58,888 nt of DNA, taken from Pelagibacteraceae bacterium. GTDB taxonomy: Bacteria > Pseudomonadota > Alphaproteobacteria > Pelagibacterales > Pelagibacteraceae. The stretch spans positions 1 through 58,888 of the forward strand of contig VTPO01000010.1 of NCBI GenBank assembly GCA_008638205.1, in the 5' to 3' direction. The position numbers and the translations under genes were made by a program. Numbering within the stretch: position 1 is the stretch's first letter; every line of letters starts with the position of its first letter. The notes beneath the pieces are model-generated. The model saw only the letters and a program-made list of their open reading frames with translations, had not been told where the DNA came from and searched no databases. Below, one piece after another: positions 48,116 to 51,250 of this stretch.

Positions 48116-48586
48116 TTATTTTTTTAAGTCTTCTTTTTTGTCTTGAGACTTTTCGGTTGTACTTGCTTCTATTTTTACGGAATCTTCCTTCTTAGTAAGA
48201 TCTAAACCGATCTTTTTTTTAATCTTCTCATTAATTCTAGCAGATTTACCTTTTCTATCCCTTAAGTAGTAAAGCTTTGCTCTTCTGACTTTTCCAGAAC
48301 GAATTAATTCAATAGATTCTAAGTTTGGACTGTAAAGCTGAAATACTCTTTCCACACCCTCTCCAAATGAAATTTTTCTAACTGTGAAAGCGGAATTTAT
48401 TCCTCTGTTTTTTTTTGCTATACAAACACCTTCGTAGGCCTGAATTCTTTGTTTTTTACCTTCAATTATTCTTACATTTACTTTTACGGTATCTCCAGGA
48501 TTGAAGTCTGTAATTGATTTATTGGCTAATAATTTTTTAATCTCTTCTTTATTTATGTCTTCAATATTTTTCATGTCTAAACTCAT
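48116..48586 (-). CDS. rplS: Large ribosomal subunit protein bL19 with C-terminal extension
   Basis: The protein has 156 residues, against about 115 in E. coli. The core includes [20 protein letters not shown] at about 31-50, [13 protein letters not shown] and the signature [18 protein letters not shown]. Beyond about residue 120 an extra Lys/Glu/Ser-rich tail follows. It is 1 bp from trmD. Confidence 0.96.
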
Positions 48587-48587
48587 T

Positions 48588-49271
48588 TTAATTCTTGTTA
48601 TACTTCTGCCATAAATCTGGCCTTAGGCGCTGTGTTATACCCCTGGACTGTTCTAAACGCCAGTGCTTTATTTCCGCATGGTTTCCCGATAATAGAACGT
48701 CTGGAACTTTTTGACCCTCCCATTCTCTAGGTTGAGTATACTGAGGATATTCTAATAAATGTCCATTAAAACTCTCTTCTTTTAAGGAAGATTCCCCACC
48801 TAAAACACCTGGCAATAATCTTAAAATACTATCTAGCAAAACAACTGATGCAGTTTCGCCTCCTGACAGGATATAGTCTCCAATGCTTATTTCTTCTATA
48901 TTATTTTTATCAATTACTCTCTGATCCACACCTTCAAAATGACCACATAAAATATTTAATCCTTTTTCTAAAGAAAAATTTTTTGCCATTTGTTGTGTTA
49001 GTTTTTTACCTTTGGGAGATAGATAAATAGTTGAGTTGGTATTTAGATTTTTTTCCAAACAGTTATTAATAACATCTGCTCGCATTATCATACCACTACC
49101 ACCGCCAAAAGGTTTATCATCGACAGACCCATGCTTATCTATGGCGTAGTCTCTTATATTTACAGTTTCTAAATTCCAAATATTTTTTTCCCTAGCTCTC
49201 TTGTACATGCCCACATCAAGCAAGCCTGGGAAAAAATCTGGATAAAGCGTAAATATTTTAGCTGACCACAT
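48588..49271 (-). CDS. trmD: tRNA (guanine-37-N1)-methyltransferase TrmD
   Basis: The 227-residue knotted SPOUT methyltransferase prevents +1 frameshifting. It shows GGGSGMIM near 58, [11 protein letters not shown] near 111-121 and [11 protein letters not shown] at about 131-141. Conserved order rpsP-trmD-rplS; rimM, often between rpsP and trmD, is absent here. Confidence 0.96.
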
Positions 49272-49278
49272 TATATCT

Positions 49279-49707
49279 TTATTTTTTTTCCTCCTCAGCT
49301 GCTTCTGCTGCTGGAGTCTCTGCTGGTGCTGCTTCTGCTACTGGAGTCTCTGCTGGTGCTGCTTCTGCTGCTTTTTTTGCTTCAGCTGCTGCTTTTAATT
49401 TTTCTTGAGCTTTCTTTTTTGGCTTAGCTTTAATCGGGTTATTTCTTTGAGCCGGCATAGGTATTACTTCTGCTTGACCTAAAAATCTCGCTATTCTTTC
49501 CGATGGTTGTGCACCTTGTGCTAACCAATACTTTATTCTATCGATATCAAGATTTAGTCTTTCCTTTTTGTCCTTGGGAAGTAATGGATTAAAAAATCCA
49601 ACTTTCTCGATAAATTTACCATCTCTTGGTCTTCGAGAATCGGCTACTACAATTTTATAGAAGGGTCTTTTTTTAGCTCCTCCTCTAGACATTCTTATTT
49701 TTAACAT
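49279..49707 (-). CDS. rpsP: Small ribosomal subunit protein bS16 with Ala/Pro/Glu-rich tail
   Basis: The protein has 142 residues, compared with about 82 in E. coli. The core ([22 protein letters not shown]-type N-terminus, then GFFNPL and [13 protein letters not shown]) is complete by about residue 85. The rest is a Lys/Ala then Ala/Pro/Glu tail with repeats AAPAETP. Alphaproteobacterial bS16 proteins often have Ala/Lys tails. A good Shine-Dalgarno (AAGGAAG) precedes the ATG. Confidence 0.96.
49298..49372 (-). repeat. 30-bp tandem repeat in the rpsP 3' end
   Basis: A 30-bp unit occurs at 49298-49327 and 49328-49357 with one base difference, followed by a half unit at 49358-49372. It encodes the decapeptide repeat around [11 protein letters not shown]. 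Length is in frame, so copy number could vary without frameshift. Confidence 0.85.
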
Positions 49708-49718
49708 ACGCTTCCTTT

Positions 49719-51080
49719 CTATTTTAGATTATTGAATAACTCAGGAGGAACATTATCCATTCCCTCAAGAGCACCTCTTCCGCCTTTTGACATTTTTTTC
49801 ATCATAGTTGTCATCATTTTATGTTGCTTAAGAAGCTTATTTACCATTGAAATGTCTGTACCAGATCCATTTGCAATTCTTTTTTTTCTTGAACCATCTA
49901 TAACTCTTGGGTTATCTCTTTCCTTTTCTGTCATGGATAAAATAATAGCCTCTTGTTTTCCAAGCAAACTTTCGTCCAGATCAGAGTCTTCCATTTGTTT
50001 TTTAATTTTAGAAACACCGGGCAACATACTCAATACCCCACTCATACCCCCTGCTTTTTTCATTTGTTGAATTTGTTTTAGGTAGTCACTAAAAGTAAAT
50101 GATCCTTTTTTAAAATTTTCCTCAAGTTCTTCAATTTTTTCTTTTTCCAATCCCTCTGAAACTTTTTCTACAAGGGAAACAACATCCCCCATACCCAAAA
50201 TTCGATTGGCTATTCTATCTGGATGAAACACTTCCATTTCATCAATACCCTCTCCAGTTCCTAGAAATTTTATTGGACATCCAGTTATTGATTTCATGCT
50301 TAATGCAGCACCACCTTTTCCATCGCCATCAATTCGGGTTAATATAATTGAACTTAGGGAGACAGTTTTTTTAAACTCCGAAGCAATATTGACAGCATCT
50401 TGACCTGTTAAAGAGTCGGCCACTAATATAATTTCACTTGGCTGAATATCGTTTTCTAATTGTTTTAACTCCATCATCATTTGTTGATCAATTTGAGTTC
50501 TACCTGCAGTATCAAAAATGATTACATCTTCTCCGGATAGGGAGGCTGCATTAATAGCTCTTTTAGATATTTCTAGAGGAAACTGTCCGTCCATTATTGG
50601 AAGTGTTTTAATAGAATTGCTATTTCCGAGTACCTCTAGCTGTCTTTGTGCTGCTGGTCGGTAAACATCCAAACTTACTAACATACTTTTTTTTGAATAC
50701 TGTTTTTCTAAATATTTAGCCAACTTTGCAGATGTCGTGGTTTTTCCAGACCCCTGCAAACCAACTACTAGAATTTTAATTGGGGGCACTGCTTTTAAAT
50801 TAATTTCTTTTTTTTCGTCTCCAAGAACTTTTACCAATTCATCAAAAACTATTTTGACGATCATTTGTCCAGGCGTTACAGATTTTAAAACTTCTTGCCC
50901 GACAATTTTAGGCTTAATATTATTAATAAATTCTTTAGCTACAGAAAGAGAAACATCCGACTCCAGTAAAGCCTGTCTAATCTTACGCAATCCTTCATCA
51001 GCCTGCTTTTCGTCTAATCGTGTTATTCGGTTAAAAAACGAAAAAGCACTTTCAATCTTATCTGTTAAACTCTCAAACAT
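49719..51080 (-). CDS. ffh: Signal recognition particle protein Ffh
   Basis: The 453-residue SRP GTPase targets nascent membrane proteins with SRP RNA and FtsY. It has the N domain at 1-95, the G domain with P-loop GLQGSGKTT (107-115), DTAGRTQID and [12 protein letters not shown], and a Met-rich M domain from about 300 with [13 protein letters not shown] start at ATG 51080, giving the usual MFESL. An upstream GTG at 51113 would add 11 residues and run into the terminator of the upstream RNA. It heads the ffh-to-sdhB block; FtsY is encoded 1 kb away on the other strand. Confidence 0.96.
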
Positions 51081-51102
51081 AATTTTCTTTCTTTCTCCCA
51101 AC

Positions 51103-51196
51103 AAAAAAGGCACTAGTGGGCGAATCCTCGCTGACTAATGTTGATCTCCTCCAAAGAGGACACCACAAAATTGTAATAATTTGTGGAAGTGATCAG
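51103..51196 (-). ncRNA. Candidate structured small RNA or attenuator leader upstream of ffh (unrecognised)
   Basis: Read on the minus strand, the 93-nt segment folds into a three-way junction. P1 is TGATC/GATCA (51191-51195 with 51142-51146). P2 is CCACAAA/TTTGTGG (51180-51186 with 51163-51169). P3 is TCCTC-TTTG-GAGGA (51147-51160). It then forms a 3' hairpin, CATTAGT/ACTAGTG (51134-51140 with 51111-51117) enclosing GCGA-GGAT-TCGC, followed by CC and six T residues (51103-51108), a convincing intrinsic terminator. A TTGACA/TATAGC promoter precedes it. The SRP RNA tetraloop region (GGAA with AGCAG) is not present. It may be an independent sRNA or a leader that attenuates ffh and the genes behind it. 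I know no family that fits. Confidence 0.55.
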
Positions 51197-51198
51197 AA

Positions 51199-51225
51199 GC
51201 TATATAGTAACAATTTAAATGTCAA
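51199..51225 (-). promoter_or_regulatory. Promoter for the small RNA / ffh block
   Basis: On the minus strand TTGACA (51220-51225) and TATAGC (51199-51204) are spaced by 15 nt, the same spacing as before sucC and mmsA. The predicted start is at about 51192-51195, where P1 of the RNA begins. The core TATATA (51201-51206) is palindromic and may also serve the dapF promoter on the other strand (TTGTGG 51181-51186, TATAGT 51203-51208). Confidence 0.55.
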
Positions 51226-51250
51226 GAAAACTGGAGTAATACTTAAAGTT

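Follow-up and report, generated by a model that had tools for sequence, protein, structure and literature searches.

Genes and features of the locus

The window, that is the whole stretch of 58,888 nucleotides of Pelagibacteraceae DNA analysed here, carries on its minus strand the operon ffh-rpsP-trmD-rplS-leuC, whose genes lie at most 11 nt apart (Table 1). The rimM gene is missing from this operon, where trmD comes directly after rpsP (49272-49278), and is present at L143, a locus of the MED-G09-like family described below. The RNA under study lies 5′ of ffh, and its last hairpin, P4, ends ~30 nt before the ATG of ffh. The initial annotation had placed it between ffh and ftsY; the position 5′ of ffh stands, while the immediate neighbour on the other side is dapF (plus strand, start about 51251), ftsY coming after dapF. 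The −35 element of the RNA gene is separated from the divergent dapF start codon by 25 nt (51226-51250), which leaves no place for a dapF promoter other than one overlapping the gene of the leader RNA.

Table 1. Features of the ffh locus in the window (all on the minus strand)
Feature	Position	Strand	Details and evidence
ffh (SRP54), first operon gene	49719..51080	-	ATG at 51080; PF00448 match, ORF
rpsP (ribosomal protein S16)	49279..49707	-	ORF, gene order
trmD	48588..49271	-	ORF, gene order
rplS (ribosomal protein L19)	48116..48586	-	ORF, gene order
−35 element TTGACA	51220..51225	-	TTGAC 60-125 nt upstream of P4 in 90/93 class-wide loci
−10 element TAGCTT	51197..51202	-	17-bp spacer; TA exactly 17 nt after TTGACN in 64/90 loci
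P2 hairpin CCACAAA/TTTGTGG	51163..51186	-	51186-51180 / 51169-51163; outside Rfam model; covariation
P3 hairpin TCCTC/GAGGA	51147..51160	-	51160-51156 / 51151-51147; 5′ strand outside Rfam model; covariation
P4 hairpin	51111..51140	-	CATTAGT 51140-51134 / ACTAGTG 51117-51111 and GCGA 51131-51128 / TCGC 51123-51120; RF01793 match
P4 internal positions	C51133.C51118 mismatch and A51132.C51119	-	Class comparison
Conserved tail CCTTTTTTGTTGGG	51097..51110	-	Holds U6 (51108-51103) and TTGG box (51101-51098); class profile

A covariance-model search matched positions 51155-51103 of the minus strand to Rfam RF01793 ("ffh sRNA") with 55 bits against a cut-off of 35, over model positions 1-52 of 52; the remaining Rfam matches in the window are weak and far under their own cut-offs. 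The ffh motif of Meyer et al. 2009 (PMC2704228) comes from the region between ffh and dapF in Candidatus Pelagibacter ubique. Its authors described one bulged hairpin that covaries and holds two conserved cytosines, saw no likeness to the Ffh-binding part of 4.5S RNA, and reported the motif missing from several orders. The same authors noted that its transcript was detected in metatranscriptomic small-RNA studies, suggested a cis-regulatory role and considered self-regulation by Ffh. An ffh leader RNA is also among the sRNAs listed from Bartonella RNA-seq (PMC7717549). The structured RNA 5′ of ffh is therefore already catalogued: the initial annotation had called it unrecognised and had proposed a covariance-model search of Rfam as a check, and this search returned a known class at the locus of the published motif. 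The annotation was right in setting the RNA apart from the SRP RNA despite its position. The SRP RNA model (RF00169) gave no match at the ffh/dapF locus and the genome's sole match lies on another contig (C21), which rules out this identity; the leader RNA also has no SRP helix-8 loop or GGAA tetraloop.

Upstream of the RNA, the −35 element TTGACA is conserved. The −10 element first proposed, TATAGC with a 15-bp spacer, is not; the −10 that aligns between relatives is TAGCTT. From this promoter, transcription would start at about 51190. A generic promoter and terminator scan listed neither element and did no better than on shuffles, and the case is thus carried by comparative data.

Conservation of the hairpins

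The sequence, strand and coordinates of the minus-strand element had been read correctly, and the 93-nt segment takes the fold as drawn, with an energy of −28.9 kcal/mol (z = −4.1 against dinucleotide shuffles). This fold was a three-way junction with a helix P1 (TGATC 51195-51191 / GATCA 51146-51142). Among 33 SAR11 sequences, 97.8% of the cells of P2 and 100% of those of P3 and P4 are paired, against 54.5% for P1. Since the transcript is inferred to start at ~51190, P1 would have its 5′ strand at about −5 to −1, outside the transcript. P1 and the three-way junction were dropped on these pair counts and on this place relative to the promoter. Without P1, the RNA still folds, as three successive hairpins (88 nt, z = −3.9); the 5′ domain alone has a mean z of −1.9 against shuffles over 92 alignment rows. 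Of the four helices initially drawn, P2, P3 and P4 are conserved and covary, and the comparison with relatives proposed as a check on P1-P3 bears out P2 and P3 and not P1; in the SAR11 set, all five pairs of P3 have changed on both sides. The Shine-Dalgarno-like GGAGGAG pointed out in P3 is incidental, since relatives read CAAAG or GGGG there with compensating partners.

The Rfam model has 52 positions and one hairpin, essentially P4. We found that the 45 nt 5′ of it are also structured (100 relatives, of which 89 matched; 386 class genomes, of which 113 matched). An extended model (R1), built from SAR11 sequences, aligns loci across the class, with ~88% of P2, 90.3% of P3 and ~99.8% of P4 paired. 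In the class-wide alignment, which is fitted to the structure and hence leans towards it, both partners differ in 21 of the 23 pairs (7/7 in P2), a result that none of the 500 shuffles or of the slid controls matched. This alignment bias weighs less on two checks. Firstly, permuting the strands of P2 and P3 between species destroyed the pairing, none of 200 permutations being as good. Secondly, 25 loci found with a further extended model (R2), and absent from its training, display the same covariation, these loci being model-aligned as well. Comparison thus establishes, at the level of sequence, the structure, promoter, position and conservation of the predicted leader; what it adds to the published motif is a second and a third hairpin, P2 and P3, both conserved and covarying, and a conserved promoter 5′ of P4.

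At the same E-value, the extended model matched 225 of the 386 class genomes against 113 for RF01793, some of these 113 having supplied its training sequences and E-values of home-made models being rough. In a phylum-wide draw, 99/99 matches fell within the same class. One genome (G106, 7% contamination) gave two extended-model matches, on contigs C63 and C595; as the copy on C595 is followed by ffh and rpsP (L195), G106 is probably a mixed assembly.

The P4 hairpin and the sequence that follows it

P4 contains a 2x2 internal loop made of a near-invariant C.C mismatch (5′ C in 91 and 3′ C in 93 of 93 sequences) and a second position that varies: A.C in 55 of these sequences, C-G in 15, G.U in 8, U-A in 6, A.A in 6 and others in 3. 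This covariation indicates pair-like behaviour at the second position. Common to the class is a tail 3′ of P4 close to CRWUUU...GUUUGG, where position 10 is T in 90% and position 11 in 92% of sequences; its conserved part, TTTGG or TTGG at +10 to +14, lies 3′ of the would-be terminator. The stretch directly after P4 is U-rich (4.95 T in the best 8 nt against a background of 2.39) and is interrupted class-wide. Of the intrinsic terminator initially proposed, the P4 hairpin is conserved, while the run of six U, present in the window, is rare in relatives: among the SAR11 loci read, it occurs only in the window and at two others (L009 and L011). P4 may act as a weak terminator, and the conservation of the tail beyond it and of the mismatch suggests a putative role in recognition as well.

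In several SAR11 species (L055, L132 and L005), the 5′-terminal part of the leader (CUUCC, UAUUCC and CUGUUUUCC) could pair over 6-10 nt with the Shine-Dalgarno region of ffh. The match between CUUCC at the 5′ end and the ffh Shine-Dalgarno/UUGG tail stands out in some SAR11 species (for example L055 and L132) and exceeds permutation in SAR11, with relatedness as a confounder. Class-wide it is weak, being reached by 15/300 permutations, or by 44/200 when scored by duplex energy. As a general feature of the leader, it has no class-wide support and is left unproven.

Retention of the RNA in genomes apparently lacking SRP

The ffh gene is found directly 3′ of the RNA in 132 of 135 loci, at 18-293 nt from P4 (median 25 nt in SAR11, 54 nt elsewhere). 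The start of ffh (or of rpsP) usually follows P4 by 18-60 nt, and the short SAR11 median leaves little room for another promoter. In turn, rpsP follows ffh in 16/16 genomes checked and in 20/20 further loci found with the extended model, so that control of SRP and control of the ribosomal protein operon are confounded in all these genomes.

Two exceptions to the rule that ffh comes next led to a MED-G09-like family (f48) of 18 small-genome marine alphaproteobacteria (L143 in G145, L142 in G351, L144 in G262, L145 in G424, and L162-L175). Firstly, we searched these genomes for the SRP pathway. No SRP54 GTPase domain (Ffh/FtsY) exceeded the cut-off in any of the 18, a single partial match of 20.5 bits being sub-threshold; the Ffh M domain was found in none of the 18 and the SRP RNA in none of the four tested, while both protein domains were found in 14/14 control genomes. 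On these 18 genomes, which are partly MAGs and 55-97% complete, six of them at least 90%, the family appears to be without an SRP pathway. Secondly, we looked at the RNA, which is kept in 14 of the 18. The next gene is rpsP at all 14 loci, with promoter, P4 and tail intact, and compensatory changes are seen in P2, P3 and P4. On the fitted A5 alignment, 65.9% of P3 is paired in this family; visual inspection shows a P3-like hairpin in every sequence, in a shifted register. In the MAG alpha proteobacterium MED-G09, one of the 18 genomes, the order leuC-rplS-trmD-rimM-rpsP-[RNA]-dapF is the usual one minus ffh. The RNA is therefore kept before rpsP in genomes without SRP, indicating that it tracks the rpsP operon and not SRP, and that SRP autoregulation cannot be its sole function.

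Discussion

The most probable reading, which we hold with some confidence, is that the (ffh-)rpsP-trmD-rplS operon has this RNA as its 5′ leader, and that the leader probably serves in attenuation or translational control by responding to a protein of the ribosome or of the operon. The hallmark of ribosomal protein leaders, a conserved structured leader directly before an r-protein operon, was found at 14/14 SRP-less loci, and before ffh-rpsP elsewhere. The element would be the structured leader of the (ffh-)rpsP-(rimM)-trmD-rplS operon in Alphaproteobacteria, and a longer form of RF01793. Starting from the conserved promoter at about 51190, the transcript would fold into P2, P3 and P4 in succession, P4 presenting its near-invariant C.C mismatch, and would continue through the conserved U-rich/UUGG tail into the ribosome-binding site of the first gene. 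P4 would be recognised by an operon protein, with S16 or L19 as first candidates, or by another translation-linked factor, and this binding would set the passage of the polymerase or the ribosome into the first gene, by attenuation or translational repression. We infer the cis action, the ligand and the direction of control. S16 and L19 are natural candidates by analogy: in other r-protein leaders the ligand is encoded in the operon, and one such leader, for S16, is proposed for Flavobacteria (Eckert et al. 2020, PMC7247131). RimM is an unlikely ligand, since rimM is absent from the operon in the window. A crude scan of P4 against the E. coli 16S and 23S binding sites, used because the window genome gave no 16S match, returned no convincing likeness; in the leader itself, no antiterminator or alternative pairing was found.

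A more specific version of this reading is tentative, and we would put it somewhat short of an even chance: RF01793 would be misnamed and would be a class-wide r-protein operon leader with three hairpins and a C.C recognition element. It would probably respond to S16 or L19, its control of ffh would follow solely from the membership of ffh in the operon, and SRP-less genomes would keep it for rpsP.

The initial annotation had left the choice between a free sRNA and an attenuator. An attenuator is possible, while the free sRNA, a trans-acting RNA ending at P4 with ffh expressed by read-through, is weakened by the lack of conservation of the U-tract and by the short gap to ffh or rpsP, and we regard it as rather unlikely. 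It would account for the RNA having its own promoter, for the U-rich stretch after P4 and a tail resembling a weak terminator, and for the classification of the family as Gene/sRNA in Rfam; moreover, an sRNA gene left behind after the loss of ffh would look similar to the SRP-less loci. The transcripts seen in metatranscriptomic small-RNA studies (Meyer 2009, PMC2704228) and the listing of the ffh leader RNA among Bartonella sRNAs (PMC7717549) also fit it, but a processed or attenuated leader would show up as a small RNA too. The conserved TTTGG/TTGG also lies downstream of the would-be terminator, and the RNA never occurs other than in cis to ffh or rpsP, usually close by.

Regulation by Ffh of its own gene through this leader, considered by Meyer 2009 (PMC2704228), agrees with the position of the RNA directly 5′ of ffh at 132/135 loci. 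However, a family in which Ffh, FtsY and detectable SRP RNA are missing keeps the RNA, compensatory changes included, and the RNA carries neither the SRP helix-8 loop nor the GGAA tetraloop. SRP-specific autoregulation is thus improbable, and as the sole function it is largely refuted by the SRP-less family. A new, unrecognised three-way-junction RNA, into which the single sequence does fold, is hardly credible given the Rfam match, the published motif and the poor conservation of P1.

The RNA had been catalogued already; what is proposed here is a function for it. Control of SRP and control of the r-protein operon cannot be told apart in the other genomes checked, whereas the SRP-less lineage separates them and points to rpsP. 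If the leader reading is true, SRP, S16/L19 and TrmD would be coupled by one leader throughout a large class of bacteria, SAR11 included, and the Rfam model should be extended by about 45 nt upstream.

Compared with known systems, the RNA shares with RF01793 and the ffh motif (PMC2704228) the ffh/dapF locus, a P4 hairpin with two conserved cytosines and a score above the gathering cut-off; it differs by two upstream hairpins, a promoter and a conserved tail, and by its occurrence 5′ of rpsP in a lineage without SRP. With the bacterial small SRP RNA (RF00169) it has in common the neighbourhood of an SRP gene and nothing more. Like the bS16 leader of Flavobacteria (PMC7247131), it is a structured leader directly upstream of rpsP-rimM, but in another lineage, the two being likened by gene position and not by sequence or structure.
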